NCBI GenBank assembly: GCA_947462335.1
Contig: OX381721.1
Span: forward strand, 434,001 to 498,000
Length of the DNA: 64,000 nt
Origin: Harmothoe impar
Taxonomy: Eukaryota > Annelida > Polychaeta > Phyllodocida > Polynoidae
Direction of reading: 5' to 3'
A program made the translations under genes and the position numbers. This document shows positions 11,287 through 55,100 of this stretch, piece after piece (the first letter of the stretch is position 1; every line of letters begins with the position of its first letter). The notes under the pieces were generated by a model. The model was not told where the DNA came from. It did not search any database and was given only the letters and a program-made list of their open reading frames with translations.

Positions 11287-11690
11287 ACCATACATGAGAT
11301 AATCAAATTGTATGTTCTTTTCTTAACTTTTTTCTTTTTAAATAGGGGGGTATTATATTATATCATTGAGAAGTTAAAACCAAATGTATTTGCTGCCTGT
11401 AAGTTTTCCGCAAAAGGACTCATAGTTATTTCATGTATGTATTATGATGAGATTAATTATATGATGATACCACTATACAACAGCTAGCCTGACAGTGGGT
11501 CATCGGCTTTATTGATCAAGCTCAGATAATATGTACACTCGACTCTATGTAAAGAGAAATATTGATTTGTTGGTTATCAGGTAAAAGAATTACCTCATCC
11601 CATACACGAGTGTTCTACAAAAAGCAAAAAATGTTAAATCTTAAGAACTTGTGGTCAATAAAGTCAAATTTGTTCATAAAAAATAAAAAA
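11287..11690 (+). other. 3' UTR and A-rich tail of the inner LINE
   Basis: A non-coding stretch lies between the ORF2 stop and the resumption of the outer RT at 11691. It ends with CAATAAAG near 11656 and an A-rich tail. The first ~43 codons of the frame opening at 11562 lie here and are not part of any protein. Confidence 0.7.
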
Positions 11691-26994: not shown

Positions 26995-27131
26995 TGTTAT
27001 GTCTGTGCCTATCCTGGTATTTCCTATTTGGCTCAATTAATGGGAATCTACTCAGAGAACAACAAACACGTGCGTTACGGTAGTTCCCGCCGGAAGTCAT
27101 CTATTCAGAACGTTGCAACGGGTATACAACA
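26995..27131 (-). repeat. 3' LTR (137 bp)
   Basis: It starts TGTTATGT and ends ATACAACA on the plus strand, so the TG...CA termini are kept. It is identical to the copy at 31847. As the element runs on the minus strand, this is its 3' LTR. It contains CACGTG and a GC-rich GTTCCCGCCGGAAG segment. Confidence 0.95.
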
Positions 27132-31846: not shown

Positions 31847-31983
31847 TGTTATGTCTGTGCCTATCCTGGTATTTCCTATTTGGCTCAATTAATGGGAATC
31901 TACTCAGAGAACAACAAACACGTGCGTTACGGTAGTTCCCGCCGGAAGTCATCTATTCAGAACGTTGCAACGGGTATACAACA
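31847..31983 (-). repeat. 5' LTR (137 bp)
   Basis: Identical to the 3' LTR at 26995-27131. It carries the element's promoter by analogy with the family. The 202 bp between it and the gag start (31645-31846) is the leader. Confidence 0.95.
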
Positions 31984-31988
31984 CAATT

Positions 31989-34900: not shown

Positions 34901-36621
34901 TTTGACGAGTTCTCTCAAATGTCCCATCCATTACATAGACACTTGCTCCTTCACATTGTATTTGCTTTTGACATTTATTGTCACCAAAAGCTGTTACAAT
35001 GAGGCCCCTGGGAAATCAAACAGCTGTAGACCATCACATTTTCTAAACACCTCAAATTCTGTCATTCTTTGTACTTCCCCTCTCATTTTTCTTTCTTTCT
35101 ACAACAGCAGTTTTCTGTTCTACAAGTTTGATAGTTTTCTCATTTTAGGGGTTTAAACATTTTCCAAGAGAGACCAAGAATTCATCAACGGCCTGAAGAA
35201 GTAAAGCATTCCGAACATCCAGCTCCAATATTTGGGATAACCCTGATATACTCTGAATTCCATCTGATATTCATCCATTTGATATCTTCTTTCCAAGGTC
35301 ACATCCATAACATTGACTCTTTCTTCTTCACAATCCATCTTGCAACATCCTTCGCTCTCACCTAAAGCTGTAAGAAAAAGACCCTAGAAAATGAAGCAGA
35401 ATTACATTGTATGATATTGGAAATTCTTCAAAACTGAATTTTTTCTCTCAATTCCCTCTTTTATTCTGCTCTGATATCATGTTTTAAAGCTCACATCCAT
35501 CACAGTCACACTTGTCTCTTCAAAAATTATGTTTTACCACCAATATTTCTATCCAAACTGTGTTCTAGAGAGAGAGACCTCTGAAAAAATTAAAGGTTTA
35601 CATCAAATATATCCCCAAATTCTAGAAAATACTCCCTTTTTTAAACTCTTAATTGGTCCCTCATTTAATGCTTTGACGAGTTCTCTCAAATGTCCCATCC
35701 ATTACATAGACACTTGCTCCTTCACATTGTATTTGCTTTTGACATTTATTGTCACCAAAAGCTGTTACAATGAGGCCCCTGGGAAATCAAACAGCTGTAG
35801 ACCATCACATTTTCTAAACACCTCAAATTCTGTCATTCTTTGTACTTCCCCTCTCATTTTTCTTTCTTTCTACAACAGCAGTTTTCTGTTCTACAAGTTT
35901 GATAGTTTTCTCATTTTAGGGGTTTAAACATTTTCCAAGAGAGACCAAGAATTCATCAACGGCCTGAAGAAGTAAAGCATTCCGAACATCCAGCTCCAAT
36001 ATTTGGGATAACCCTGATATACTCTGAATTCCATCTGATATTCATCCATTTGATATCTTCTTTCCAAGGTCACATCCATAACATTGACTCTTTCTTCTTC
36101 ACAATCCATCTTGCAACATCCTTCGCTCTCACCTAAAGCTGTAAGAAAAAGACCCTAGAAAATGAAGCAGAATTACATTGTATGATATCGGAAATTCTTC
36201 AAAACTAAATTTTTTCTCTCAATTCCCTCTTTTATTCTGCTCTGATATCATGTTTTAAAGCTCACATCCATCACAGTCACACTTGTCTCTTCAAAAATTA
36301 TGTTTTACCACCAATATTTCTATCCAAACTGTGTTCTAGAGAGAGAGACCTCTGAAAAAATTAAAGGTTTACATCAAATATATCCCCAAATTCTAGAAAA
36401 TACTCCCTTTTTTAAACTCTTAATTGGTCCCTCATTTAATGCTTTGACGAGTTCTCTCAAATGTCCCATCCATTACAAAGACACTTGCTCCTTCACATTG
36501 TATTTGCTTTTGACATTTATTGTCACCAAAACCTGTTACAATGAGGTACCTGGGAAATCAAACAGCTGTAGACCATCACATTTTCTAAACACCTCAAATT
36601 CTGTCAATCTTTGTATTTCCC
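31989..36621. repeat. satellite array, block 2
   Basis: The same ~773 bp monomer resumes after the LTR element. Phase marks are at 32054, 32829, 33605, 34377, 35153 and 35924, and the block ends at the Polinton target duplication. The run 33605-36621 is nearly the same as 50084-53100, including rare variants such as TTTTCAAAGAGAG and AAAACTAAATTTT, so it is a higher-order copy. The frames in it are not genes. Confidence 0.95.
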
Positions 36622-37080
36622 AGTAGTATAGTATGTATCGGAACGGGACTATAGTTAAGTACTGTTTATTACTCAATCGACATGCAGCCAATCAGAGGCC
36701 TCCATTTGGTCACGTGACCGGAAGTGACCTACTTAGGGGATTAGTGGTGACGTCACGTGACCTAGTTAGCCAATCAGAGGCCTCCATTTGGTCACGTGAC
36801 CGGAAGTGACCTACTTAGGGGATTAGCGGTGCATTCTGGGTAACCCTGCAGCCAATCAGAGGCCTCCATTGGGTGACCGGAAGTGACCTACTTAGGGGAT
36901 GGTGCATTCTGGGTAACCTACTGACCTACTTAGGGGACCGGAAGTGACGTCATATGACCTAATTTAGGATCACGTGATCGGAAGTGACCTGATGAGTCAC
37001 GTGACCGGAAGTGACGTCACACGACTTAATGGCCAATCGGAAGCGACCTGATTGATCACGTGACCGGAAGAAGAAGAAGT
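36622..37080. repeat. left terminal inverted repeat
   Basis: About 459 bp complementary to 45690-46137. The outer ~65 bp are an exact match to the other end. Inward it is built from repeated modules holding CCAAT (36688, 36770, 36852, 37033), CACGTG (about 36711, 36754, 36793, 36971, 36998, 37057), TGACGTCA (36748) and CCGGAAGTGAC. It ends in a short GAA run. The layout resembles a promoter or enhancer array. Confidence 0.9.
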
Positions 37081-37289
37081 TTTTTTTTTGTTTAGGATCC
37101 CGTGACTGGAAGCGACGTCGTCACATGAGTGACGCTTTAAGAGACTGCGCGACTTACTAGTAAAAGAAGCCGTATGATAATAAAAACACAACAATATTTT
37201 CTTTTAATTTTTTTTTATTTTTTTTTTCAATCTTGATAAACACTCTATTTTTGAAAAGATGCACACGCTTATTTTATTTTTTTTTTTTT

Positions 37290-40200
37290 TCATATCTCTA
37301 AAGGACTCGTTGTCACACCGTCAGAATGCACGCGACGCTTATAATACAAGTAGCGCACGCCGTCTTTCTCTATGGTGTAGGTGACCATTTTGTTTCGCAC
37401 CACTTTGAAATTTCTATTTACAGCAATGAGAGTTTTTCGTTGGCGAAGAACATCCAAGAAGGCGTCTGGTTCCTGGGGGTTTTGTTTCTTCTGTACGCCT
37501 TTTGCACTCCATTTTTTGGATTTTCTTTCACCGGTGTCGCTGACTCGATCGTAGCAAATGTAAGTCTTAGGGTTGAGACTTAGGATCCCGTCACCTTCCC
37601 ACTCCGCTTTCATGAGCCCCGAAGTTCTCAGATCGTGAAGGTACCGTCTCTCACAACATCCGCCGGGCGGCGCACACCATTCTCGCACTCTTTCCGTTTT
37701 TGTCTTCACGAAAAGCTCTAAGTGCTCGTCGCACACCGCTGTCGGAAGCCACTTTCGTTTTTCTCTGAAGTACGTCTCTCTCAGGCGAGGTTTCACTAGG
37801 TCATCCAACGTGGCACCGCTGAGAGCCATGTAAAGACTGTCGGTGTCCATTTTACAAAGGGCATAATCGCGCCGATCGACGAATCTATCCAAGAAGTCGT
37901 ATGTGAACTCTAACATTTTCAACTTCGCGTACTGGTATACCATGAACCCTATCTGAATAGGGAGGTTGTTCTTGACCGTTTTCGGTTGTAGTTCGACTTC
38001 AAACAGATCGGAAGTCAACTCGGACGCCTTTTTGAAGCGCCACGAATTGGCCAATAGTTCGAACTTCCGACTGTCAGTGTATCTCACCGCCGTGTGTTTT
38101 TCTTTGTTGCAGATTGTTTTACCGTACGTAGCGTTTCCCATTAACTTGTAACAGTCTGACAGAATTTTCTCGCTCTCGTTCACGTCGCCACGTCTTCGCG
38201 CCGCCGTCACTTCGTCCGCGAAACCGGCAAAGGAGCGTTTAGGTAGGTATTCTACCACCAGCTGCACTTTGGTGACTATCAAACCGTGCTCTAAATACCA
38301 CTTGAGAAGCGGCGTTCCCAAGAGAATATTTTTTCCGTGGTAACTCCCTATCAGACATCTCTGAGGCGTGCTCAACAGCTTTTCTTCCTGCGCAAAGTCT
38401 GACATGTAAGGGCCTATGTCCGATTTTGAAACGGTCGCGTTCTTGAAAACGGGGGTCATTTCTTCGAAGTACTCTCGTAGGTGAGGCGGCGTAGTGATGT
38501 CCACTTGAACTAAACCGAACATTTTCTCCTCTTTCACAGCGGAAAGGATGTCGCTCTCGCTCATCGCGTTTCGAGACACTTTCAAAGCGTCAACCTTCCA
38601 GCGTTGTTGGGAGGCCTTGACCCGCTCATCTCGACGCTTCATCTCTCGCCATTCGCACTCCCACACGACGACCAGCTTGTAACCTAACGCTTTCAAGTAA
38701 GCGCTTACTCTGGTCGTTCTGTCGCGTCTCTCCTCTCTCAGTGAAGCGCACTGATATCGGTGCGACGGTATGCACTCGTGAGCGTGGAACCAACACCCGT
38801 GAAACTGGAAAACCGTATTAGAGGCCGCGTGAAATCCGTCCACGCGAATTCTCCGACAGCCTACCGCCATCTCGCCGCCGTTCAGAGCGTGGCGCAGTTT
38901 CACGTCGCGGTCGTGCTCTACGAAGCGTAACCACTCCAAAGCGCTGTGAGAGTTTCTTTGCCTGATTTCGGGCTTGAACTCGGTCTCGGGCCGTCTCACC
39001 GCGTAATAGCCCGTGCAGTGCGCTTCGCTCATGCAGCGCAAGTACAGAGAGTTAGCGTCTAGTCCTAGGATGTGTTGGCACGGTCTCGCTTCTTCGCCGT
39101 ACTTGTGCTCCCTTATCCGCGTGGTGCCCTTCTCGTGAAATCTATGGAAGATGATGGAAGGACCGCCGACTAGATTCTCTTTGATCAGAGCGTGGAGGAC
39201 GGCGTCGAACTGGGGAAACGTTGTGAACGCGTCTTCTAGGTTTTGGAAGAGGAAGCGTAAAGTCAAACCGGCGAGAGAAACTCCGTCTTTCAACATGTCG
39301 ATGCCGCGATCTTGGAAAAATTTAGCGTGATTTTTCAGAGCTTCTATGAAAGGTTTCACGTCTTTGTTGTTGTAGTGGATCAAGTAGTCTTCCATAGTTT
39401 GCATCTTCTCGTCGGACCAAACTTTCTGACATGCGGCGTAGTCGGATTCGGACATTTTGACGCCCGTCAGCTCGCTGTCGAAAGCCGATCTCGGCGGCAG
39501 CGTTCTGTTTGCCAGTTTCCTGGTAGACGTCATCCATTCGTAAGGAAAGTGACCTTTCTCTTCGTTCCTGGTGAAAGCTCGCAAATAGGTCGCGTAGTTG
39601 TAACCGGGTGCCAAATAGTTGACTACGTCCAAGAAAACCGTGTGCTGTGTGTAAACCGCCAAGTATTGATTGCTTCTCTTTATGACGCTGAATTCTTGGT
39701 TTCTTCGGTCTCCGGAGGCGAAGAACGAGTGAAGGCGTATTTTGATCAGGTTCAAGTCGTAACGCCCCGAGTTGAAGCCCACCACTGGAGCTTGACGGAT
39801 GTATCTCAGAAGACGCTTCTTCAGTTGAACTAACGGGTGTCTGGTCTGAGCCGCAGCGAAGCCGCCTGGAGAAGGGGTGGTGAACGTCGCCTCCTCCAGC
39901 AGGAGAGCTTCACCTATCGCCGCATCTAACTTCGCTAACGTCGGTCGGTAAAGTTCTAGCACAGCTTCCCCGATCGCTTTGGCGTTCTCGTTTATGTGAT
40001 TTAAAACTCGGTCCAACAAGGGGTCGGAATCTGCGTCGGACGCTCTGACGAAGCAGACGGGCCCCTCCCACCCCGGAAAGTCGGATGCGACGCTAGCCGA
40101 CAAAGGGACGTGATCCCACAGCAGGGACACGTGCTCCGTCGACGGTTCTTTGCACGGTCTGAAGAAAGCCTCGAAATCGAAGGCGATCTTGTAAGGGTAG

Positions 40201-41417
40201 ATTCCGGAATGTCCGTCGGGGGGAAAAATGGAGAAGTCTGCTAGCGCTTCGAAAATCGTTCTCGAATTTTGGTAGATGCCACCTACGTAGCGCAACTTGA
40301 CTTGTCGGCAAGAGGAAAGCTGGTTCCTGTGTCTCTTCAGCAAGAACTCGGTGGTGAACGCCGCCTTACACTTGCAACATTCGTATATGCCCGCGTACGC
40401 GTTGAAGTCCGTGACGAGAGAGACGTGCAAACCGCCTTTCGCCGTCAGGTGTAGGTTGACTTTACCTCGGGCGGCCACAGTTCTGGAAGGCGGTCTGATC
40501 AGAGTAACGCGTCTTCTCAACTTCCGCCCCGGCACTTGACGCGACGCGGTGTAAACCGCTATTTGTACGTCAAACAAGTTCTCTAACGCGGGTAAGTCGC
40601 GGATGTTCAGACCCGGAAAGGATTCAGGTGTGGCAGCGGGACAGAACTGACGTAACAAATCTGAAGCGCGCTTGCTGGTGTTGTATAAGTGAAAGGAAAT
40701 GCAGCGGAAGATGCAGAGGTTGTCCTTGTTGGGAAAATCTAACACGCCGCTTCTCTTTCCAACTCGACCGGCCTGAGTGATCCTACCGCCTATGGGGAAT
40801 TCCCCCGGTCCCATGTAAACGCAGATGTTCAAATTGGTAGGAAAAAGAACGTGCCACTTGGTGTCAGCGTCGCAAAGTTTCCGTACCTCCTCGCAAGCGA
40901 CGGTGTTTTGCATCTTTGAGAGGAGCTCTTCCAAAGTTTCTGAATTAGTTACAGTAGGGAGCGGTTGTATGAGAGTTGCGTTGTTCTGGGAGGCGTGGAA
41001 GTAGCGCAGTTTGCTCTTGTCTTCTCTGTGTTGTAACAGTAAGCCTACCGAGAAACCCACTTTGTATCTGAATCTTTGTGTCAAGTGAATGCGACGCATA
41101 GTATCTACAGCGTCACTCAACTCGCCGGTTGGTAGCCTGAAGTTTGTTACACTCACGCGAGTCCCGTGCATCCTGACGCCCGTTTGTATCGCAGGCCAAT
41201 TCGCCGTGAACGTTTCCTCCCCGTTCGGTACAGCACATATGCGCGGAGGGACGGTCACCCCGTCCAGAGATTCGCGTCGACAAGCGCTCTTTCGGCAATC
41301 CCCTTCGCCGCATAGAGGGCAAAACTTAGCTACTACTCTACAATTTTCTACGTGTCTCTCGTGGTTGTACGCTCTTTTAAACATTTTGAAACACTTTTCG
41401 CATACGTACTGTGTCAT
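37290..41417 (-). CDS. polB: protein-primed-type family B DNA polymerase (Polinton PolB)
   Basis: 1375 residues from ATG 41417; the in-frame GTG at 41429 is a weaker start. The N-terminus has two Cys/His zinc-like segments (residues ~5-46). An OTU-like region at ~218-340 (D-N-L-C-I-F-R-C, then L-H-V-S-L) is followed by a C2H2-like finger at ~347-370. Exonuclease motifs are F-D-F-E (D414, E416), F-N-S-G-R-Y-D (~548-554) and Y-N-N-K-D (682-686). Polymerase motifs are D-A-N-S-L-Y (787), K-L-M-G-N-A-T-Y-G (1091-1099) and D-T-D-S (1191-1194), then a K-G-V-Q-K region. The F-H-G-C-W-F-H-x-H-E-C segment (~872-882) is typical of Polinton polymerases. No stop or frameshift breaks it, so it may be active. 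It would replicate the linear element from its ends. The 3' side has TTTATT (AATAAA on this strand) near 37272. Confidence 0.9.
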   Translation of the reverse strand: MTQYVCEKCFKMFKRAYNHERHVENCRVVAKFCPLCGEGDCRKSACRRESLDGVTVPPRICAVPNGEETFTANWPAIQTGVRMHGTRVSVTNFRLPTGELSDAVDTMRRIHLTQRFRYKVGFSVGLLLQHREDKSKLRYFHASQNNATLIQPLPTVTNSETLEELLSKMQNTVACEEVRKLCDADTKWHVLFPTNLNICVYMGPGEFPIGGRITQAGRVGKRSGVLDFPNKDNLCIFRCISFHLYNTSKRASDLLRQFCPAATPESFPGLNIRDLPALENLFDVQIAVYTASRQVPGRKLRRRVTLIRPPSRTVAARGKVNLHLTAKGGLHVSLVTDFNAYAGIYECCKCKAAFTTEFLLKRHRNQLSSCRQVKLRYVGGIYQNSRTIFEALADFSIFPPDGHSGIYPYKIAFDFEAFFRPCKEPSTEHVSLLWDHVPLSASVASDFPGWEGPVCFVRASDADSDPLLDRVLNHINENAKAIGEAVLELYRPTLAKLDAAIGEALLLEEATFTTPSPGGFAAAQTRHPLVQLKKRLLRYIRQAPVVGFNSGRYDLNLIKIRLHSFFASGDRRNQEFSVIKRSNQYLAVYTQHTVFLDVVNYLAPGYNYATYLRAFTRNEEKGHFPYEWMTSTRKLANRTLPPRSAFDSELTGVKMSESDYAACQKVWSDEKMQTMEDYLIHYNNKDVKPFIEALKNHAKFFQDRGIDMLKDGVSLAGLTLRFLFQNLEDAFTTFPQFDAVLHALIKENLVGGPSIIFHRFHEKGTTRIREHKYGEEARPCQHILGLDANSLYLRCMSEAHCTGYYAVRRPETEFKPEIRQRNSHSALEWLRFVEHDRDVKLRHALNGGEMAVGCRRIRVDGFHAASNTVFQFHGCWFHAHECIPSHRYQCASLREERRDRTTRVSAYLKALGYKLVVVWECEWREMKRRDERVKASQQRWKVDALKVSRNAMSESDILSAVKEEKMFGLVQVDITTPPHLREYFEEMTPVFKNATVSKSDIGPYMSDFAQEEKLLSTPQRCLIGSYHGKNILLGTPLLKWYLEHGLIVTKVQLVVEYLPKRSFAGFADEVTAARRRGDVNESEKILSDCYKLMGNATYGKTICNKEKHTAVRYTDSRKFELLANSWRFKKASELTSDLFEVELQPKTVKNNLPIQIGFMVYQYAKLKMLEFTYDFLDRFVDRRDYALCKMDTDSLYMALSGATLDDLVKPRLRETYFREKRKWLPTAVCDEHLELFVKTKTERVREWCAPPGGCCERRYLHDLRTSGLMKAEWEGDGILSLNPKTYICYDRVSDTGERKSKKWSAKGVQKKQNPQEPDAFLDVLRQRKTLIAVNRNFKVVRNKMVTYTIEKDGVRYLYYKRRVHSDGVTTSPLEI

Positions 41418-41620
41418 GTTTTTTTTCACTCGGTTACCAACTACTTAGCCGTCTAACTATCTATCTATCTATCTAGCCATCTATCAATCTGTCGTCTATG
41501 TAACTATCTTTCTGTCTGCTGTCTGTGTATCCGTCTGTCTGTCTGTCTGTCTGTCTGTCTCATACAGCGTACGTCAAACGCTGTGTGTGTGTGTGTGCGC
41601 GCGTGAGCGTTGAGCGTCTC
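41418..41620. repeat. microsatellite spacer between polB and PC4-like gene
   Basis: This 203 bp spacer is largely simple repeats: (ATCT)n at about 41458-41478, (GTCT)n at about 41533-41562, and (GT)n at about 41581-41600. No TATA box for polB is seen in it, so polB may be expressed from the upstream PC4-like gene's transcript. Confidence 0.75.
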
Positions 41621-43210
41621 TCATTCCGAATCTATGCCGAGATATTTCAGAATGATCTCTGTTTTGTCATCCAACTCTTTGAGCGCTCTGGCGGACAGCG
41701 TCACCCCCTGCTGTGTGGGTTTTTTGTCAGGACCTTCGTACTTGCGCACGTGGACGAGGTTCTTACCGCTGTAGTAGCTCACAGCTGCGTACACTTCGCC
41801 CGCCTCATCCAGCACTGCGAACCAGGGGGTGTGATTAGGTTTTCCTTGCGCGGCCGCTGTGTCGCGTATGCGCACCACTGCGCGGATATCGGCGATGCGT
41901 GCTATGAGCTCGCGCAGCGCGTCGGCCGTGAAGTGCACTCGCTTGCTTCTGGTCAGAGACGCCTCTTTCACCTGGCCGTCTTTTGTGTAGCGCGGCCTCC
42001 TAGACAGTCTAGCCACGTCCTCCCAGATCTCCAGCGTCAAAGCTCCGTCTAAGCAGAACTCTAACCCGAGTGTTTTCTCTGCTTCTTCTCGTCCATCTCC
42101 TTCTTTTTCTTGTATTTTTCTCTTCTTAGTGGGCCTTGTTGTTCTGGAACTCACCTTAGAACGTTTCACACCCGCAGGATGAGTAACACCATCAGCGTGA
42201 GCTGAATCAGCAGCAGAACCGATAGCAGGAGCAGCGTCAGCGCTGGTGGTATCGGAGGTCTCGTTGTTGGAACAGCGCAGCCACACGCCGTCCGTGCTGT
42301 GTGTAGCGGTAGAAGATGAAGCGCCGCCGCCGCCGCCCTCGTAAGGTGGCGGTGAGGGCAGTCGCCACGGACCGGACGGGGGGGCGCTAGCAGTGGAGGA
42401 AGTGAGGTCGAAAGGTCGAAGAGGGAAGCCGAAAAACGTACCGCTCACCCCTTGCCCTTCGGGTTCTTCGTACGCCTCGTCGTCAGCGTCGTTCTCTGTC
42501 TCACCCTGTTGCTGCTCCTCCTCCTCCTCTTCTTCTCGGTTCAGGGGCTGAGTGTCCGAATAGCTGTAACTCTCAGCGCGAGCGGCGTCGAGGGCGTCCG
42601 TCGATGTAGTGGTGGAGGAGAGGGGCTGTGCAACGTGCGGCAGGTCATCACAGTCATCAACAGTAGTGGGGAGGTAAAAACCCGGTTGCCAGTACTGCGC
42701 TGTGCCAGGAGCGTTGTCGTCAGTAGTAGTAGCAGTAGCAGCAAGTGCAGCAGAAGCAGCCGCAGCAAGCGCAGCCGCAGCAGACGCAACAGTAGCAGGC
42801 GCAGCAGCAGCCTCAGCAGGCGCAGCCGTAGCAAGCGCAGCAGTAGCAGGCGCAGCAGCAGCAGCAGCAGCAGCAGCAGCGGCAGGCGGGACGGCGGTAG
42901 CAGCGGCAGCGCGCTTAGCAGCAACGTGTACCGTCGCGAGTGTAACAACGTCGCTAGCACGACGACTGCTACCAGTAGTACTACTAGTACTACTACCACT
43001 ACTACTACTACTGCTACTACTAGTGCTACTGCTACTACTACTACTACTACTACTGCCGCGAGCGCTCGCTACAGCAGGAGGGTGATAAGACCAACCGGCT
43101 GCGGCGGTAGTCTCATGTTCAGTAGCAAGAGCAGGCACTGACGCTAAACGAACGCTGTTCCGCGTAGTCTTCTTGTTCTTGAACGCCGCTAGCTGTTGTC
43201 TTTTGCTCAT
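41621..43210 (-). CDS. Ser/Ala-rich nuclear-type protein with two PC4-like repeats
   Basis: 529 residues from ATG 43210, which has a strong context (CACCATGA). The frame also runs eight codons upstream to a TTG. The first ~380 residues are low complexity: Ser runs (~55-85), Ala/Thr/Pro runs (~90-160), an acidic E/Q stretch (~230-260) and a basic cluster T-K-K-R-K-I-Q resembling a nuclear localisation signal. Residues ~383-529 contain two related units, each with strands, a basic or aromatic K-Y/R-Y segment, a (V/R)-x-(F/L)-(T/S)-A-x-A-L-(R/K)-E-L helix. The second (V-Y-A-A-V-S-Y-Y-S-G-K-N-L-V-H-V-R-K-Y) matches the PC4/Sub1 fold pattern. PC4 proteins bind single-stranded DNA and promote transcription. 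This assignment is by eye. Confidence 0.65.
   Translation of the reverse strand: MSKRQQLAAFKNKKTTRNSVRLASVPALATEHETTAAAGWSYHPPAVASARGSSSSSSSSSSTSSSSSSSSGSSTSSTTGSSRRASDVVTLATVHVAAKRAAAATAVPPAAAAAAAAAAAPATAALATAAPAEAAAAPATVASAAAALAAAASAALAATATTTDDNAPGTAQYWQPGFYLPTTVDDCDDLPHVAQPLSSTTTSTDALDAARAESYSYSDTQPLNREEEEEEEQQQGETENDADDEAYEEPEGQGVSGTFFGFPLRPFDLTSSTASAPPSGPWRLPSPPPYEGGGGGASSSTATHSTDGVWLRCSNNETSDTTSADAAPAIGSAADSAHADGVTHPAGVKRSKVSSRTTRPTKKRKIQEKEGDGREEAEKTLGLEFCLDGALTLEIWEDVARLSRRPRYTKDGQVKEASLTRSKRVHFTADALRELIARIADIRAVVRIRDTAAAQGKPNHTPWFAVLDEAGEVYAAVSYYSGKNLVHVRKYEGPDKKPTQQGVTLSARALKELDDKTEIILKYLGIDSE
42699..43060 (-). repeat. trinucleotide repeat tracts in coding sequence
   Basis: GCA/AGC-type runs (about 42720-42905) and TAC/AGT-type runs (about 42970-43055) encode the Ala- and Ser-rich segments of the PC4-like protein. 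Opposite-strand frames over them are repeats read backwards and not genes. Confidence 0.85.
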
Positions 43211-43270
43211 GGTGGTGACTGTAGAGAGCAGCAAAAAAGAATGAGTGAGTGAATGGAGGTTTCCAAGCCC

Positions 43271-43278
43271 CTTATATA
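43271..43278 (-). promoter_or_regulatory. TATA box of PC4-like gene
   Basis: On the minus strand TATATAAG lies about 60 bp upstream of ATG 43210. That spacing leaves room for a transcription start near 43245 and a short leader. Confidence 0.65.
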
Positions 43279-43294
43279 CGCCTTCTCGCTTCTA

Positions 43295-43690
43295 GAGCTA
43301 AGCTACTTACCGACCCTGTTCAGCTGCCGCCGGCTGGCCGGCGGCCATTCACAAAGAGAAACAAAAAGACATAAGGCATGACGTTTTCAGCTGGATCCCT
43401 TTCCCCCCCCCCTCTTTTGAGAGATCGACTGTGATGATGAGCTAAGCCGCTTACCACCCTGTTCAGCAATTCAACGCGCATTAGCTGTATAAAGGGTTAA
43501 GCGGTTGCTGCCTGCCGTCGACTGACCGGCGGCGGCCATTCACAAAGACATAAGGTATGACGTTTTCAGCTGGATCCCTTTTTGAGGGATCCACTGTGGT
43601 GAGCTAAGCCGCTTACCACCCTGTTCAGCCATTCAGCGCGCGTTAGCTGTATAAAGGATTAACGGTAACGGTGATGAGCTTACAGTGTGT
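43295..43690. repeat. three tandem copies of a ~150 bp promoter-like unit
   Basis: GAGCTAAGC...CCCTGTTCAGC starts units near 43295, 43439 and 43601. Units share GCCATTCACAAAGA, ATGACGTTTTCAGCTGGATC and, in the last two, CTGTATAAAGG. The TATAAAGG boxes (43488 and 43650, plus strand) point toward the Death-domain gene. Possible splice donors AAGGTATGAC (43553) and GTGGTGAGTAG (43824) are present, so an intron is possible. Confidence 0.6.
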
Positions 43691-44169
43691 ATACAAAAAA
43701 AAACTACAGGAGGCGTGTGGCGTGAAGCAGGACCCCCCTAAGACGAACGTGTCTGTCTGTGAGTAGAGGCGTGTGCATGTGGTGAGCGACTTAAGTGTAA
43801 GACAAAAATCGCCACCTCCTGCCGTGGTGAGTAGACCGGGCCGGCCAGGCGGGCGGGCGGCCGGCTAGTTCAATAGGGAGGGGTGACAGCTGCCTAAGGC
43901 TGTGCATGAAAAAAAATCCGATTTTCACCTGACCTCTGACGTTTGTTACAATGAATGTCAGAGGGAGGGAGACGTCCTCGGGTAGGGGGTAGGAGGTATT
44001 AAGGCTATGAGTGAGGAAAAAACACCGTTTTCAGCTGGTCTCCACGGATAGCGATGCCACACCCCCTCGTCATCTAAGCTCTTAAGGAGCGGAGCGGCTG
44101 AAAAAGCGTCATGCGGACAGGGTGCTAGACAGCTGGAGCGCTGTTGGAAATGGGATTAAACTCCCTCTG
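43691..44169. other. divergent intergenic region
   Basis: No convincing gene. It contains GC-rich GGCCGGCC-type palindromic stretches near 43840-43868, two A-run/TTTTCA elements (43907 and 44017) and a possible splice donor. It separates the minus-strand PC4-like gene from the plus-strand Death-domain gene. Confidence 0.5.
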
Positions 44170-44178
44170 TATAAAAAG
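44170..44178 (+). promoter_or_regulatory. TATA box of Death-domain gene
   Basis: TATAAAAAG lies about 213 bp upstream of ATG 44383 and inside the longer frame that opens at 44122. If used, transcription starts near 44200 and the first 26 or so codons of the longer frame would not be in the mRNA. Confidence 0.5.
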
Positions 44179-44233
44179 CTCTCATTTCTGTTGGAAAAAA
44201 AACATATCACCTCTGACCCCAGTAACGGCTACT

Positions 44234-44261
44234 ACCACCACCACCGCCACCACCACCACCG

Positions 44262-44292
<31 letters not shown>

Positions 44293-44306
44293 TGCCGCCG
44301 CCGCCA
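44234..44306. repeat. CCACCG/CCG microsatellite
   Basis: Runs of CCACCA, CCGCCA and CCGCCG units. In the longer frame they give a His- and Arg-rich stretch; in another frame they give Ala and Thr. This is leader sequence if translation starts at 44383. Confidence 0.85.
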
Positions 44307-44382
44307 AGACGAGACGAGATGGCTCAAGCTATTCCACTTTCAAGCTCGCCTTCACCGCCCGGTGCGCCTGAAAAAAAAGTTA

Positions 44383-45069
44383 ATGCGGCTTGACGACGTG
44401 AGACGCGGCGCGAGGCAGCAGACCGATGATGGGGAGACCCGACAGGTAGGACAGCGGCGGTTAGCCTATAGCGACGCCTTGCTTCGTCAACTAGGTAAAG
44501 AGTTGAGCGGCTGTTGGAGAGAGTTGGGCAGTAGCTTAAAAGTCAGCGCCGCCCGTATGGATGCTCTAGTAGAGCGCAGTGTCAAGACACCGGAGGAGCT
44601 GTGTACGGCGATGTTCCGAGTGTGGTGGGGTGAAACCCCGCATCGTCATAGATGGGGCGAGCTCGGTCGCGTCTTCACCCGCATAAGACGCATGGAACTG
44701 TTGGCTCAGTGGATGGCCCTTCTCCACAGACAGGGGTTGGATTTCGAAAACCCCGACTCGCGCGCGATGCATAAGCACTTGGGCACCCTCGGCAGACGTC
44801 TGGGTAGCAGGTGGAAAGAGGTGGGGGACCATTTAAAATTGTCGCCTGAGAGGTTAGATAAGATCGCTGAAGAATGCGAATACGGAGGAAGTCCCGCTGA
44901 GTGGGCCTTCCGAGTGTTGAAAATGTGGCAAGATGAAGCTGACGGCGCCGGCGGTACGCCTTTTGAACTCCTTCGAGTGTTGACTGAGGACATGGGAAAG
45001 TTTGGCCTCGGCATCGCGATATTACTTGACTTTATCAAGCAAGAAACAACGAGAACGACGGACATGTGA
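44383..45069 (+). CDS. tandem Death-domain protein
   Basis: 228 residues from ATG 44383; the same frame is open back to ATG 44122 (315 residues), but the added part is a His/Arg microsatellite with a TATA box inside it. Two Death-fold units follow: ~32-113 (L-G-K-E-L-S-G-C-W-R-E-L-G-S-S-L-K-V, then F-R-V-W-W and W-x-E-L) and ~128-216 (L-G-R-R-L-G-S-R-W-K-E-V-G-D-H-L-K-L, L-D-K-I-A-E-E, V-L-K-M-W-Q, then F-E-L-L-R-V-L). The W-x-E-x-G-x-x-L core, the L-x-x-W helix and the late F/W-x-x-L-x-x-x-L helix fit the Death family. These domains assemble apoptotic and innate-immune adaptors. No kinase, caspase or TIR part is attached, so a decoy or scaffold role is plausible. A 24-codon upstream frame (ATG 44318) overlaps this start. 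Confidence 0.75.
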   Translation: MRLDDVRRGARQQTDDGETRQVGQRRLAYSDALLRQLGKELSGCWRELGSSLKVSAARMDALVERSVKTPEELCTAMFRVWWGETPHRHRWGELGRVFTRIRRMELLAQWMALLHRQGLDFENPDSRAMHKHLGTLGRRLGSRWKEVGDHLKLSPERLDKIAEECEYGGSPAEWAFRVLKMWQDEADGAGGTPFELLRVLTEDMGKFGLGIAILLDFIKQETTRTTDM

Positions 45070-45220
45070 ATTGTTGTGTTTTATTTTCATACGTCTTCTT
45101 TATTAGTAAGTAAAAAAAAAAATATCATAACAATTAAGACGCGCGATCTCTTAAAGTGTCACTTCCTCCAGTCGCAGCTGATCGCCTCATCGCAGCACGT
45201 GATAAACAAAAAAAAAACGA

Positions 45221-45262
45221 AGAGACACGCTTCTTCCTCTCGAGAGGAAGAAGCGTGTCTCT
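45221..45262. repeat. 42 bp perfect palindrome
   Basis: AGAGACACGCTTCTTCCTCT is followed by CG and its exact complement, with CTCGAG at the centre and no loop. It lies 151 bp after the Death-domain stop. It could be a cruciform, an RNA hairpin for 3' end formation or a replication-related structure. Long loopless palindromes are normally unstable. Confidence 0.9.
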
Positions 45263-45310
45263 CGATTGAAATCTTTTTCTTTTCTTTTTTTCTTAAAAGA
45301 GACAAACGCC

Positions 45311-45463
45311 CCTTAGAGTGCTCCCCCACCCCCCTAGAGTGCCCCCCTCCCCCCTCCCCCCCCTCCCCCCCACCACCCGCCCCATGCATCCTAAAAGCGC
45401 TCCCCTCCCCATGCATCTTAAAGAAGCCCCCCTCCCCCCCTCCCCTCCCCTCCCCCCCTTATA
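45311..45463 (-). other. C-rich tract (G-quadruplex potential on minus strand)
   Basis: Many runs of 4-8 C separated by one or two bases (for example 45345-45370 and 45427-45458), with CCCATGCATC repeated at 45382 and 45408. The complementary strand has far more than four G-runs in short spacing, meeting the usual quadruplex pattern. Confidence 0.75.
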
Positions 45464-45530
45464 CACTCTAAAGAACGCTTCTACCTAGTTCAATAAGTCA
45501 CTTCCAGTCGCTCGTAAAACAATAAAAAAT

Positions 45531-45536
45531 GAAAAA
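45531..45536 (+). terminator. possible polyadenylation signal of Death-domain gene
   Basis: AATAAA in AAACAATAAAAAATG is the first clean signal downstream of the plus-strand Death-domain stop, 460 bp away. It is followed by A-rich and T-rich runs. Use is unproven. Confidence 0.35.
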
Positions 45537-45688
45537 AAATGAAAAAAAAACTTATATCGTAGTGTTTTTTATTAGTTTACCGAAAAAAAATAAGAGACTC
45601 GCCTCCTCCTCCAAAAAAAAAAGATATCACATTTTAAAGCCCGTGACCCCTTAAAGACGCTCATCTCTTCATTAAGTCGCGTGACGTC

Positions 45689-45689
<1 letters not shown>

Positions 45690-45719
<30 letters not shown>

Positions 45720-46137
45720 CTTCTTCTTCCGGTCACGTGATCAATCAGGTCACTTCCGGTCACGTGATCCTCAATGAGGTCACTTCCGGTTGGCCATTAG
45801 GTCATGTGACGTCACTTCCGGTCCCCTAAGTAGGTCAGTAGGTTACCCAGAATGCACCATCCCCTAAGTAGGTCACTTCCGGTCACCCAATGGAGGCCTC
45901 TGATTGGCTTCAGGGTTACCCAGAATGCACCGCTAATCCCCTAAGTAGGTCACTTCCGGTCACGTGACCAAATGGAGGCCTCTGATTGGCTAACTAGGTC
46001 ACGTGACGTCACCACTAATCCCCTAAGTAGGTCACTTCCGGTCACGTGACCAAATGGAGGCCTCTGATTGGCTGCATGTCGATTGAGTAATAAACAGTAC
46101 TTAACTATAGTCCCGTTCCGATACATACTATACTACT
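45690..46137. repeat. right terminal inverted repeat, with TTC expansion
   Basis: Complementary to 36622-37080, ending ...TATACTACT. The inner edge holds about 13 TTC units (45690-45729), whereas the left repeat has only about four GAA units. The body carries the same CCAAT, CACGTG, TGACGTCA and ETS-like modules in reverse order. Confidence 0.9.
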
Positions 46138-49100
46138 TTTCCCCACCCATTTTTCTTTCTTTCTACAACAGAAGTTTTCTGTTCTACAAGTTTGATAGTT
46201 TTCTCATTTTAGGGGTTTAAACATTTTCAAAGAGAGACCAAGAATTCATCAACAGCCTGAAAAAGTAAAGCATTCCGAAGATCCAGATCCAATTTTTGGG
46301 ATAACCCTGGTATACTCTGAATTCCATCTGATATTCATTCATTTGATATCTTCTTTCCAAGGTCATATCCATAACATTGACTCTTTCTTCTTCACAATCC
46401 ATCTTGCAACATCCTTCACTCTCACCTAAAGCTGTAAGAAAAAGACCCTAGAAAATGAAGCAGAATCACATTGTATGATATTGGAAATTCTTCAAAACTG
46501 AATTTTTTCTCACAATTCCCTTTTTTATTTCTGCTCTGATATCATGTTTCAAGGCTCACATCCATCACAGTCACACTTGTCTCTTCAAAAATTATGTTTT
46601 ACCACCAATATTTCTATCCAAACTGTGTTCTAGAGGGAGAGACCTTTGAAAAAATGACAGGTTAACATCAAATATATCCCCAAATTCTAGAAAATACTCT
46701 CTTTTTTAAACTCTTAATTGGTCCCTCATTTAATGCTTTGACGAGTTCTCTCAAATGTCCCATCCATTACATAGACACTTGCTCCTTCACATTGTATTTG
46801 CTTTTGATATTTATTGTCCCCAAAACCTGTTACAATGAGGCCCCTGGGAAATCAAACAGCTGTAGACCATCACATTTTCTAAACACCTCAAATTCTGTCA
46901 TTCTTTATATTTCCCCTCCAATTTTTCTTTCTTTCTACAACAGCAGTTTTCTGTTCTACAAGTTTGATAGTTTTCTCATTTTAGGGGTTTAAACATTTTC
47001 CGGGAGAGACCAAGAATTCATCAACGGCCTGAAGAAGTAAAGCATTCCGAACATCCAGCTCCAATATTTGGGATAACCCTGATATACTCTGAATTCCATC
47101 TGATATTCATCCATTTGATATCTTCTTTCCAAGGTCACATCCATAACATTGACTCTTTCTTCTTCACAATCCATCTTGCAACATCCTTCGCTCTCACCTA
47201 AAGCTGTAAGAAAAAGACCCTAGAAAATGAAGCAGAATTTCATTGTATGATATTGGAAATTCTTCAAAACTGAATTTTTTCTCTCAATTCCCTCTTTTAT
47301 TCTGCTCTGATATCATGTTTTAAAGCTCACATCCATCACAGTCACACTTGTCTCTTCAAAAATTATGTTTTACCACCAATATTTCTATCCAAACTGTGTT
47401 CTAGAGAGAGAGACCTCTGAAAAAATTAAAGGTTTACATCAAATATATCCCCAAATTCTAGAAAATACTCCCTTTTTTAAACTCTTAATTGGTCCCTCAT
47501 TTAATGCTTTGACGAGTTCTCTCAAATGTCCCATCCATTACAAAGACACTTGCTCCTTCACATTGTATTTGCTTTTGACATTTAATGTCACCAAAACCTG
47601 TTACAATGTGGTACCTGGGAAATCAAACAGCTGTAGACCATCACATTTTCTAAACACCTCAAATTCTGTCAATCTTTGTATTTCCCCACCCATTTTTCTT
47701 TCTTTCTACAACAGAAGTTTTCTGTTCTACAAGTTTGATAGTTTTCTCATTTTAGGGGTTTAAACATTTTCCAAGAGAGACCAAGAATTCATTAACAGCC
47801 TGAAAAAGTAAAGCATTCCGAAGATCCAGATCCAATTTTTGGGATAACCTTGGTATACTCTGAATTCCATCTGATATTCATCCATTTGATATCTTCTTTC
47901 CAAGGTCACATCCATTACATTTACACTTTCTTTTTCTTCACAATCCACCTTGCAACATCCTTTCCTCTCACCTAAAGCTGTAAAAAAAAAAGACCCTAGA
48001 CAATGAAGCAGAATTGCATTGTATGATATCGGAAATTCTTCAAAACTGAATTTTTTCTCTCAATTCCCTCTTTTTTTTCTGCTCTGATATCATGTTTTAA
48101 AGCTCACATCCATCACAGTCACACTTGTCTCTTCAAAAATTATGTTTTCCCACCAATATTTCTATCCAAACTGTGTTCTAGAGAGAGAGACCTCTGAACA
48201 AATTAAAGGTTTACATCAAATATATCCCCAAATTCTAGAAAATACTCTCTTTTTAAAACTCTAAATTAGTCCCTCATTTAATGTTTTGACAAGTTCTCTC
48301 AAATGTCCCATCCATTACATAGACACTTGCTCCTTCACATTGTATTTGCTTTTGACATTTATTGTCACCAAAACCTGTTACAATGAGGCCCCTGGGAAAT
48401 CAAACAGCTGTAGACCATCACATTTTCTAAACACCTCAAATTCTGTCATTCTTTGTATTTCCCCTCCAATTTTTCTTTCTTTCTACAACAGCAGTTTTCT
48501 GTTCTACAAGTTTGATAGTTTTCTCATTTTAGGGGTTTAAACATTTTCCAAGGGAGACCAAGAATTCATCAACGGCCTGAAGAAGTAAAGCATTCCGAAC
48601 ATCCAGCTCCAATATTTGGGATAACCCTGATATACTCTGAATTCCATCTGATATTCATCCATTTGATTTCTTCTTTCCAAGGTCACATCCATTACATTGA
48701 CACTTTCTTTTACTTCACAATCCACCTTGCAACATCCTTTCCTCTCACCTAAAGCTGTAAAAAAAAAGACCCTAGACAATAAAGCAGAAATGCATTGTAT
48801 GATATCGGAAATTCTTCAAAACTGAATTTTTTCTCTCAATTCGCTCTTTTATTTCTGCTCTGATATTTTGTTTTTTAGCTCACATCCATCACAGTCACAC
48901 TTGTCTCTTCAAAAATTATGTTTTCCCACCAATATTTCTATCCAAACTGTGTTCTAGAGAGAGAGACCTCTGAAAAAATTAAAGGTTTACATCAAATATA
49001 TCCCCAAATTCTAGAAAATACTCTCTTTTTAAAACTCTAAATTGGTCCCTCATTTAATGCTTTGACGAGTTCTCTCAAATGTCCCATCCATTACATAGAC

Positions 49101-52100
49101 ACTTGCTCCTTCACATTGTATTTGCTTTTGACATTTATTGTCACCAAAAGCTGTTACAATGAGGCCCCTGGGAAATCAAACAGCTGTAGACCATCACATT
49201 TTCTAAACACCTCAAATTCTGTCATTCTTTGTACTTCCCCTCTCATTTTTCTTTCTTTCTACAACAGCAGTTTTCTGTTCTACAAGTTTGATAGTTTTCT
49301 CATTTTAGGGGTTTAAACATTTTCCAAGAGAGACCAAGAATTCATCAACGGCCTGAAGAAGTAAAGCATTCCGAACATCCAGCTCCAATATTTGGGATAA
49401 CCCTGATATACTCTGAATTCCATCTGATATTCATCCATTTGATATCTTCTTTCCAAGGTCACATCCATAACATTGACTCTTTCTTCTTCACAATCCATCT
49501 TGCAACATCCTTCGCTCTCACCTAAAGCTGTAAGAAAAAGACCCTAGAAAATGAAGCAGAATTACATTGTATGATATTGGAAATTCTTCAAAACTGAATT
49601 TTTTCTCTCAATTCCCTCTTTTATTCTGCTCTGATATCATGTTTTAAAGCTCACATCCATCACAGTCACACTTGTCTCTTCAAAAATTATGTTTTACCAC
49701 CAATATTTCTATCCAAACTGTGTTCTAGAGAGAGAGACCTCTGAAAAAATTAAAGGTTTACATCAAATATATCCCCAAATTCTAGAAAATACTCCCTTTT
49801 TTAAACTCTTAATTGGTCCCTCATTTAATGCTTTGACGAGTTCTCTCAAATGTCCCATCCATTACAAAGACACTTGCTCCTTCACATTGTATTTGCTTTT
49901 GACATTTATTGTCACCAAAACCTGTTACAATGAGGTACCTGGGAAATCAAACAGCTGTAGACCATCACATTTTCTAAACACCTCAAATTCTGTCAATCTT
50001 TGTATTTCCCCACCCATTTTTCTTTCTTTCTACAACAGAAGTTTTCTGTTCTACAAGTTTGATAGTTTTCTCATTTTAGGGGTTTAAACATTTTCAAAGA
50101 GAGACCAAGAATTCATCAACAGCCTGAAAAAGTAAAGCATTCCGAAGATCCAGATCCAATTTTTGGGATAACCCTGGTATACTCTGAATTCCATCTGATA
50201 TTCATTCATTTGATATCTTCTTTCCAAGGTCATATCCATAACATTGACTCTTTCTTCTTCACAATCCATCTTGCAACATCCTTCACTCTCACCTAAAGCT
50301 GTAAGAAAAAGACCCTAGAAAATTAAGCAGAATCACATTGTATGATATTGGAAATTCTTCAAAACTGAATTTTTTCTCACAATTCCCTCTTTTATTTCTG
50401 CTCTGATATCATGTTTCAAGGCTCACATCCATCACAGTCACACTTGTCTCTTCAAAAATTATGTTTTACCACCAATATTTCTATCCAAACTGTGTTCTAG
50501 AGGGAGAGACCTTTGAAAAAATGACAGGTTAACATCAAATATATCCCCAAATTCTAGAAAATACTCTCTTTTTTAAACTCTAAATTGGTCCCTCATTTAA
50601 TGCTTTGACGAGTTCTCTCAAATGTCCCATCCATTACAAAGACACTTGCTCCTTCACATTGTATTTGCTTTTGATATTTATTGTCCCCAAAACCTGTTAC
50701 AATGAGGCCCCTGGGAAATCAAACAGCTGTAGACCATCACATTTTCTAAACACCTCAAATTCTGTCATTCTTTATATTTCCCCTCCAATTTTTCTTTCTT
50801 TCTACAACAGCAGTTTTCTGTTCTACAAGTTTGATAGTTTTCTCATTTTAGGGGTTTAAACATTTTCCGGGAGAGACCAAGAATTCATCAACGGCCTGAA
50901 GAAGTAAAGCATTCCGAACATCCAGCTCCAATATTTGGGATAACCCTGATATACTCTGAATTCCATCTGATATTCATCCATTTGATTTCTTCTTTCCAAG
51001 GTCACATCCATTACATTGACACTTTCTTTTTCTTCACAATCCACCTTGCAACATCCTTTCCTCTCACCTAAAGCTGTAAAAAAAAAGACCCTAGACAATA
51101 AAGCAGAAATGCATTGTATGATATCGGAAATTCTTCAAAACTGAATTTTTTCTCTCAATTCGCTCTTTTATTTCTGCTCTGATATTTTGTTTTTTAGCTC
51201 ACATCCATCACAGTCACACTTGTCTCTTCAAAAATTATGTTTTCCCACCAATATTTCTATCCAAACTGTGTTCTAGAGAGAGAGACCTCTGAAAAAATTA
51301 AAGGTTTACATCAAATATATCCCCAAATTCTAGAAAATACTCTCTTTTTAAAACTCTAAATTGGTCCCTCATTTAATGCTTTGACGAGTTCTCTCAAATG
51401 TCCCATCCATTACATAGACACTTGCTCCTTCACATTGTATTTGCTTTTGACATTTATTGTCACCAAAAGCTGTTACAATGAGGCCCCTGGGAAATCAAAC
51501 AGCTGTAGACCATCACATTTTCTAAACACCTGAAATTCTGTCATTCTTTGTACTTCCCCTCTCATTTTTCTTTCTTTCTACAACAGCAGTTTTCTGTTCT
51601 ACAAGTTTGATAGTTTTCTCATTTTAGGGGTTTAAACATTTTCCAAGAGAGACCAAGAATTCATCAACGGCCTGAAGAAGTAAAGCATTCCGAACATCCA
51701 GCTCCAATATTTGGGATAACCCTGATATACTCTGAATTCCATCTGATATTCATCCATTTGATATCTTCTTTCCAAGGTCACATCCATAACATTGACTCTT
51801 TCTTCTTCACAATCCATCTTGCAACATCCTTCGCTCTCACCTAAAGCTGTAAGAAAAAGACCCTAGAAAATGAAGCAGAATTACATTGTATGATATTGGA
51901 AATTCTTCAAAACTGAATTTTTTCTCTCAATTCCCTCTTTTATTCTGCTCTGATATCATGTTTTAAAGCTCACATCCATCACAGTCACACTTGTCTCTTC
52001 AAAAATTATGTTTTACCACCAATATTTCTATCCAAACTGTGTTCTAGAGAGAGAGACCTCTGAAAAAATTAAAGGTTTACATCAAATATATCCCCAAATT

Positions 52101-55100
52101 CTAGAAAATACTCCCTTTTTTAAACTCTTAATTGGTCCCTCATTTAATGCTTTGACGAGTTCTCTCAAATGTCCCATCCATTACATAGACACTTGCTCCT
52201 TCACATTGTATTTGCTTTTGACATTTATTGTCACCAAAAGCTGTTACAATGAGGCCCCTGGGAAATCAAACAGCTGTAGACCATCACATTTTCTAAACAC
52301 CTCAAATTCTGTCATTCTTTGTACTTCCCCTCTCATTTTTCTTTCTTTCTACAACAGCAGTTTTCTGTTCTACAAGTTTGATAGTTTTCTCATTTTAGGG
52401 GTTTAAACATTTTCCAAGAGAGACCAAGAATTCATCAACGGCCTGAAGAAGTAAAGCATTCCGAACATCCAGCTCCAATATTTGGGATAACCCTGATATA
52501 CTCTGAATTCCATCTGATATTCATCCATTTGATATCTTCTTTCCAAGGTCACATCCATAACATTGACTCTTTCTTCTTCACAATCCATCTTGCAACATCC
52601 TTCGCTCTCACCTAAAGCTGTAAGAAAAAGACCCTAGAAAATGAAGCAGAATTACATTGTATGATATCGGAAATTCTTCAAAACTAAATTTTTTCTCTCA
52701 ATTCCCTCTTTTATTCTGCTCTGATATCATGTTTTAAAGCTCACATCCATCACAGTCACACTTGTCTCTTCAAAAATTATGTTTTACCACCAATATTTCT
52801 ATCCAAACTGTGTTCTAGAGAGAGAGACCTCTGAAAAAATTAAAGGTTTACATCAAATATATCCCCAAATTCTAGAAAATACTCCCTTTTTTAAACTCTT
52901 AATTGGTCCCTCATTTAATGCTTTGACGAGTTCTCTCAAATGTCCCATCCATTACAAAGACACTTGCTCCTTCACATTGTATTTGCTTTTGACATTTATT
53001 GTCACCAAAACCTGTTACAATGAGGTACCTGGGAAATCAAACAGCTGTAGACCATCACATTTTCTAAACACCTCAAATTCTGTCAATCTTTGTATTTCCC
53101 CACCCATTTTTCTTTCTTTCTACAACAGAAGTTTTCTGTTCTACAAGTTTGATAGTTTTCTCATTTTAGGGGTTTAAACATTTTCAAAGAGAGACCAAGA
53201 ATTCATCAACAGCCTGAAAAAGTAAAGCATTCCGAAGATCCAGATCCAATTTTTGGGATAACCCTGGTATACTCTGAATTCCATCTGATATTCATTCATT
53301 TGATATCTTCTTTCCAAGGTCATATCCATAACATTGACTCTTTCTTCTTCACAATCCATCTTGCAACATCCTTCACTCTCACCTAAAGCTGTAAGAAAAA
53401 GACCCTAGAAAATTAAGCAGAATCACATTGTATGATATTGGAAATTCTTCAAAACTGAATTTTTTCTCACAATTCCCTCTTTTATTTCTGCTCTGATATC
53501 ATGTTTCAAGGCTCACATCCATCACAGTCACACTTGTCTCTTCAAAAATTATGTTTTACCACCAATATTTCTATCCAAACTGTGTTCTAGAGGGAGAGAC
53601 CTTTGAAAAAATGACAGGTTAACATCAAATATATCCCCAAATTCTAGAAAATACTCTCTTTTTTAAACTCTTAATTGGTCCCTCATTTAATGCTTTGACG
53701 AGTTCTCTCAAATGTCCCATCCATTACATAGACACTTGCTCCTTCACATTGTATTTGCTTTTGATATTTATTGTCCCCAAAACCTGTTACAATGAGGCCC
53801 CTGGGAAATCAAACAGCTGTAGACCATCACATTTTCTAAACACCTCAAATTCTGTCATTCTTTATATTTCCCCTCCAATTTTTCTTTCTTTCTACAACAG
53901 CAGTTTTCTGTTCTACAAGTTTGATAGTTTTCTCATTTTAGGGGTTTAAACATTTTCCGGGAGAGACCAAGAATTCATCAACGGCCTGAAGAAGTAAAGC
54001 ATTCCGAACATCCAGCTCCAATATTTGGGATAACCCTGATATACTCTGAATTCCATCTGATATTCATCCATTTGATTTCTTCTTTCCAAGGTCACATCCA
54101 TTACATTGACACTTTCTTTTTCTTCACAATCCACCTTGCAACATCCTTTCCTCTCACCTAAAGCTGTAAAAAAAAAGACCCTAGACAATAAAGCAGAAAT
54201 GCATTGTATGATATCGGAAATTCTTCAAAACTGAATTTTTTCTCTCAATTCGCTCTTTTATTTCTGCTCTGATATTTTGTTTTTTAAGCTCACATCCATC
54301 ACAGTCACACTTGTCTCTTCAAAAATTATGTTTTCCCACCAATATTTCTATCCAAACTGTGTTCTAGAGAGAGAGACCTCTGAAAAAATTAAAGGTTTAC
54401 ATCAAATATATCCCCAAATTCTAGAAAATACTCTCTTTTTAAAACTCTAAATTGGTCCCTCATTTAATGCTTTGACGAGTTCTCTCAAATGTCCCATCCA
54501 TTACATAGACACTTGCTCCTTCACATTGTATTTGCTTTTGACATTTATTGTCACCAAAAGCTGTTACAATGAGGCCCCTGGGAAATCAAACAGCTGTAGA
54601 CCATCACATTTTCTAAACACCTCAAATTCTGTCATTCTTTGTACTTCCCCTCTCATTTTTCTTTCTTTCTACAACAGCAGTTTTCTGTTCTACAAGTTTG
54701 ATAGTTTTCTCATTTCAGGGGTTTAAACATTTTCCAAGAGAGACCAAGAATTCATCAACGGCCTGAAGAAGTAAAGCATTCCGAACATCCAGCTCCAATA
54801 TTTGGGATAACCCTGATATACTCTGAATTCCATCTGATATTCATCCATTTGATATCTTCTTTCCAAGGTCACATCCATAACATTGACTCTTTCTTCTTCA
54901 CAATCCATCTTGCAACATCCTTCGCTCTCACCTAAAGCTGTAAGAAAAAGACCCTAGAAAATGAAGCAGAATTTCATTGTATGATATTGGAAATTCTTCA
55001 AAACTGAATTTTTTCTCTCAATTCCCTCTTTTATTCTGCTCTGATATCATGTTTTAAAGCTCACATCCATCACAGTCACACTTGTCTCTTCAAAAATTAT

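Follow-up and report, generated by a model that had tools for sequence, protein, structure and literature searches.

This locus raises the question of what a protein made of two Death domains is doing inside a Polinton-type element of an annelid, and what kind of element carries it. The window, that is, the whole stretch of Harmothoe impar DNA that was analysed (64,000 nucleotides; contig OX381721.1, positions 434,001 to 498,000 of the forward strand), contains such an element at 36622-46137, 9,516 bp long and bounded by inverted repeats. Its genes are three, encoding a family B DNA polymerase (PolB), a PC4-domain protein and the Death-domain protein, and the longest stop-to-stop frame outside them is 133 aa.

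Ends and insertion site of the element

The left terminal inverted repeat (36622..36963, + strand, 342 bp) starts with AGTAGT and includes tandem repeats of about 82 bp, and the right one (45796..46137, - strand) has ACTACT as its last bases. With (AGT)2//(ACT)2 termini, the Maverick/Polinton end motif, and long terminal inverted repeats, the element has the ends of a Maverick/Polinton. It is also flanked at both ends by a 6-bp target site duplication of the kind found in that group, TTTCCC (36616..36621 and 46138..46143, neither assigned a strand). The insertion lies inside a satellite with a unit of about 771 bp. When the two flanks are joined they match 46 places in the window, 40 of which cross the insertion site. 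All 40 are empty, and these empty satellite copies, with which the left copy of the duplication was compared, show a single TTTCCC (31 of 40) or CTTCCC (9 of 40) at the site. Because the ends and the 6-bp duplication match the description of Mavericks, the insertion is of Maverick type. It is probably recent, since the arms of the inverted repeat are near-identical, with two mismatches over their first 342 bases.

In the account of intact vertebrate Mavericks given in PMC8097293, (AGT)2//(ACT)2 is the commonest end motif, target duplications are of 6 bp, inverted repeats of 46-1447 bp and whole elements of 12.7-24.6 kb. The present element is like these in its ends, its 6-bp duplication, an inverted repeat length within the range and an uninterrupted PolB, but at 9.5 kb it is shorter. 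Ends, target duplication and PolB together bear out the placing of the Death gene inside a Polinton-type element that had been proposed in an earlier note on this DNA. An Rfam scan of the element gave nothing at gathering scores. A perfect 42-bp palindrome, which could fold into a strong hairpin, lies just 3' of the Death gene at 45221..45262 and is a possible 3' processing or replication signal.

The Death-domain protein and its relatives

The Death gene (44383..45069, + strand) encodes a protein of 228 aa, to which Pfam, PDB profile and hhalign comparisons assign a putative Death fold twice over. Against the Pfam Death family (PF00531) the whole protein scores 33 bits (gathering score 22.6; E 6.7e-8) in two stretches, while each half alone lies under the cut-off, the first at 18.8 bits (E 0.0018) and the second at 18.1 bits (E 0.0029). 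The first predicted domain has approximate bounds of 44467..44730 (Pfam core 44506-44700) and the second of 44746..45060 (core 44800-44982), both on the + strand. Aligned with each other by hhalign, the two domains score 50.8, with 33% identity over 67 columns, against a best score of 18.2 among 50 column-shuffled profiles, and judged by sequence the halves are tandem duplicates. In a PDB search with a four-sequence profile, the best matches of the first half are FADD death domains (E 0.0012), which makes this domain FADD-like by sequence; the second half matches 9uc5 "GPX62" (E 0.0027) and then RIPK1 (E 0.036). With the single sequence the designed repeat protein dTor_9x31L ranks first (E 0.0006), with none of its stretches passing by itself, and RIPK1 comes second (0.023). 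AlphaFold models reached a mean pLDDT of 41 and 49, from alignments of four and five sequences, values below useful confidence, so that the assignment of the fold depends on sequence comparison; fold searches with these models are not taken as proof. These comparisons agree with the earlier note in that two Death-fold units probably fill most of the protein, and Pfam shows no enzymatic partner domain, in line with its statement that a caspase, kinase or TIR partner is absent.

Relatives of the protein were sought in a space of 5.8 billion proteins, in which 1,728 and at least 7,997 candidates sharing 5-residue words were scored. Among the candidates scored only four homologues were found at E<=10: P0004 (95% identity), P0005 (76%), P0006 (54%) and P0127 (57%). 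All four pass the PF00531 cut-off with two stretches each (31.5, 28.9, 37.9 and 33.5 bits). Their clusters at 90% identity hold 7, 14, 1 and 1 member sequences, counts that take one contig each and so give no proof of genomic copy number, and the relatives lie on contigs of 0.8-2.7 kb. Down to 54% identity the relatives retain both domains and many invariant residues, as would be expected under selection, although protein databases hold open frames by construction. Ranked by identity, they run much as the nearest PolBs do (99, 77 and 67% among the homologues listed), which fits joint descent of the two genes.

The earlier note had taken the gene for a captured host gene. No named host protein appeared at E<=10 among the candidates scored, a result that lends this claim no support, and the scoring may have passed over distant proteins of a host. 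That the gene was taken from a host is plausible. Phage records held no relative of the Death protein, nor did a search of IMG/VR with the Death alignment find one, although records from the element's own genome may be excluded there. In the literature covered, which is incomplete, we found nothing relevant that joins Polintons/Mavericks with a death domain.

The 228-aa Death frame of this copy is open, as had been noted, but two ATGs lie between its TATA box and position 44400. The first of them (44319) has the stronger context, yet it is out of frame with the Death ORF and opens a leader-like peptide of 24 aa (44319..44393, + strand). Translation from 44383 would require leaky scanning, or else this copy may yield little Death protein, because the first and stronger ATG is out of frame. 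In P0005 a similar leader is fused in frame to the Death domains. A peptide upstream of P0127 that resembles the untranslated leader of the window was also considered, and was read as shared 5' DNA.

Replication-type genes, and Polinton genes that were not found

PolB (37290..41417, - strand) is uninterrupted over 1375 aa and was identified by Pfam, motifs and profile. It scores 27.6 bits against DNA_pol_B_2 (cut-off 25.8), and the polymerase motifs DANSLY, KLMGNATYGK and MDTDS are present, as are exonuclease motifs. A profile of 29 PolBs shows C2H2-like fingers at the N-terminus, where it matches zinc fingers, and the residues D232, C235 and H331 are invariant across the 29 aligned sequences. 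Guided by the descriptions in PMC11071308 and PMC11071296, we infer that these three residues mark an OTU-like region, so that the protein would have the Polinton-type order of putative OTU-like, exonuclease and polymerase parts. A Vsr-like endonuclease is inserted at about 38592-38822 (profile match to 1odg, E 1.3e-7). Some PolB relatives carry Vsr endonuclease as their source name, and PHROGs gave weak endonuclease and polymerase matches for PolB.

With PolB residues 380-1375 as query, 597 homologues were found at E<=1e-5. Among the 120 listed, the named organisms are molluscs, amphioxus, a comb jelly and one bacterial MAG, of Sedimenticola, whose sequence (P0120) we read as host carry-over. 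A quick tree was built from 48 rows, namely the window, the contig QGON01000029.1 described below and 46 of the 120 listed homologues, and in it the window PolB groups with P0007, P0008 and P0009. The cluster of P0007 at 90% identity has 31 member sequences. IMG/VR, where records from the element's own genome may be excluded, gave no relative of PolB, of the 29-PolB alignment, of the distant PolB P0101, of the PC4-domain protein or of the inverted repeat unit.

The PC4-domain protein (41621..43210, - strand, 529 aa) has a low-complexity N-terminal part and a C-terminal PC4 domain (41672-41788, - strand). Against PF02229 (cut-off 25 bits) its C-terminal 145 aa (residues 385-529) score 25.3 bits, whereas the whole protein scores 21.9. 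By its domain it is likely to bind single-stranded DNA. A single-sequence PDB search with the protein or its domain gave no PC4 or other relevant match, and PHROGs gave none for this protein or the Death protein. The PC4 and Death genes form a divergent pair, each with its own TATA box, as the earlier note described: TATATAA at 43272..43278 (- strand, read from 43278) for the PC4 gene and TATAAAA at 44170..44176 (+ strand, from 44170) for the Death gene. The expected number of TATA matches, computed for the + strand from 500 single-base shuffles, is 0.16. Two direct-repeat pairs, of 41 and about 96 bp, lie in the promoter region between the two genes (43362-43666).

For comparison we used a gene set on a contig (QGON01000029.1, 1-11769) from a MAG labelled as a bacterial endosymbiont of the tubeworm Escarpia laminata. 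It came from GTDB contigs, where a pattern gave 90 matches and one of them proved to be related to PolB, and is probably host DNA contamination with an animal-type Polinton gene set. Its PolB has 35% identity to that of the element and stands beside an rve integrase with a chromodomain. Its ATPase matches adenovirus IVa2 (22 bits against 21) and its protease matches adenain (19.6 bits, under the 21.3 cut-off). Its penton- and MCP-sized ORFs have no Pfam match, and their capsid label comes from size and position alone. No terminal inverted repeats were seen on it. At a PolB identity of only 35%, it shows the lineage of this polymerase more widely in the company of Polinton genes. Neither the Death protein (best E 0.68) nor the PC4-domain protein (best E 9.2) finds a counterpart on it, so the Death/PC4 module is not general to Polintons.

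When eight proteins of this contig were compared with the window by tblastn, PolB alone was found; the other seven gave a best E of 0.68 anywhere in the window and 0.94 inside the element. A retrovirus-like integrase was not found in the element (best match of the integrase query in the window, E 3.9), though a spliced or very divergent one could escape such a search. Packaging ATPase, capsid and protease were likewise not found inside the element with these distant queries, and for hexon, the mark of adintoviruses, a capsid-sized protein of 437 aa, whose hexon identity is assumed, gave E 4.8 or worse. This copy as it stands therefore does not encode the integrase implied by its ends and target duplication. 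The element had been called self-replicating: its uninterrupted PolB agrees with this, but with integrase, ATPase, capsid and protease undetected the term holds only with qualification. In these four genes and in carrying Death and PC4 genes it differs from Mavericks/Polintons.

Possible roles and origin of the element

We put at roughly 0.5 the probability that the element is a compact Polinton/Maverick-derived replicon, consisting of a replication-type module and an accessory Death protein without recognisable integration or virion genes, in which the Death protein blunts host death signalling. From the anatomy of the element we infer how replication, integration and the action of the Death protein might proceed. 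The element's PolB would copy its linear DNA, beginning at the terminal repeats, and the PC4-domain protein would coat it, and integration, perhaps also packaging, would be provided in trans by proteins of full-size Polintons, for example the integrase of one with similar ends. The Death protein would bind host death-domain proteins of the FADD/RIPK1 type through Death-Death contacts and cap or divert host assemblies, so that apoptosis or innate signalling arising from extrachromosomal replication would be blunted. Because it has two Death domains and no effector, it may act as a competitor in such assemblies, and a role as decoy or scaffold, as suggested in the earlier note, can reasonably be supposed. 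The FADD/RIPK1 pairing is a loose one, since for the second domain 9uc5 (GPX62) is a better match than RIPK1, and two Death domains in tandem might just as well stimulate death signalling. That the Death protein is instead a structural or replication scaffold, a nuclear oligomer and no modulator of cell death, seems improbable: by profile FADD (E 0.0012) and RIPK1 (E 0.036) outscore THOC1 or ankyrin, and to our knowledge no Polinton replication factor resembles a Death-domain protein.

The small size could also have an ordinary cause. Transposon families commonly have shortened copies, and a full-size Polinton with an accessory Death gene may have lost its integrase and virion half once and then been copied, in which case its compactness would mean nothing. 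Accessory regions flank the core in most intact vertebrate Mavericks (PMC8097293), which is consistent with such an internal deletion. We nevertheless consider it unlikely: the PolB and PC4 genes are uninterrupted, the divergent layout with its two TATA boxes is clean, and five of the first eight listed PolB relatives have a longest contig of similar length (P0007, 9882; P0009, 9859; P0011, 9603; P0013, 10059; P0014, 9323 bp), although size alone proves nothing and the remaining three comprise two near 17 kb and one of 4.3 kb. Complete ends with a second half missing would also be seen in a multipartite Polinton-like virus, with replication and early genes on a 9.5-kb linear segment and integrase and virion genes on another with the same ends; segmented PolB viruses, the bidnaviruses, do exist (PMC11071296). 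We regard this as very improbable. More tentatively than for the compact replicon itself, we suggest that the element could belong to a stable linear-replicon lineage, a Polinton satellite that retains a polymerase of its own together with a Death-domain immune modulator and is integrated and packaged by full-size Polintons. If so, it would be like satellites that use helper viruses, but would itself supply the cell-death modulator. The element also separates the part of a Polinton that serves replication from the part that serves integration and the virion, so that trans-mobilisation or segmentation can be put to the test.

Death-fold modulators are known from large viruses, namely the vFLIPs, with tandem DED, and the poxvirus pyrin-only proteins. 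The Death protein is like these in being small, with one or two death-fold domains and no effector, but theirs are DED or PYD, whereas here Death domains occur in a transposon-like element. Anti-apoptotic homologues and/or candidate oncogenes are reported in most mammal-associated adintoviruses (PMC11071296), whose PolB also has an OTU-like N-terminal region; unlike them, the element has no detected hexon or chromodomain integrase, and the main text of that account has no mention of a tandem Death protein. Burro giant Gypsy elements of planarians likewise combine mobility with domains related to apoptosis (BIR, BCL2-like), but they are retrotransposons and carry other domains as polyprotein parts (PMC6431247). 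The anti-apoptotic theme is thus already known from adintoviruses, and as far as our searches show, what is new is a Polinton derivative that has no integrase and carries a tandem Death protein. It is open whether Mavericks/Polintons act as viruses in animals, and particles have never been observed (PMC8097293). If a Death-domain protein is under selection on a Polinton-type replicon, it would mark a point where replication meets the host cell-death machinery and offer a concrete protein for tests.

The satellite array around the element (16314-26987, 31986-36621 and 46138-64000) has units of about 771-775 bp, and a 132-aa ORF appears in it 14 times in the ORF list. The array hosts both the Polinton derivative and a Gypsy-type retrotransposon with an uninterrupted gag-pol ORF of 1443 aa (27313-31644, - strand) between 137-bp LTRs (26995-27131 and 31847-31983). 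Because these LTRs are 100% identical and the ORF is uninterrupted, the Gypsy insertion is probably very recent. Pieces of a non-LTR retrotransposon lie at 8523-12362 (+ strand), with an endonuclease ORF at 8523-9746 and reverse transcriptase ORFs at 9752-11080 and 11631-12362.
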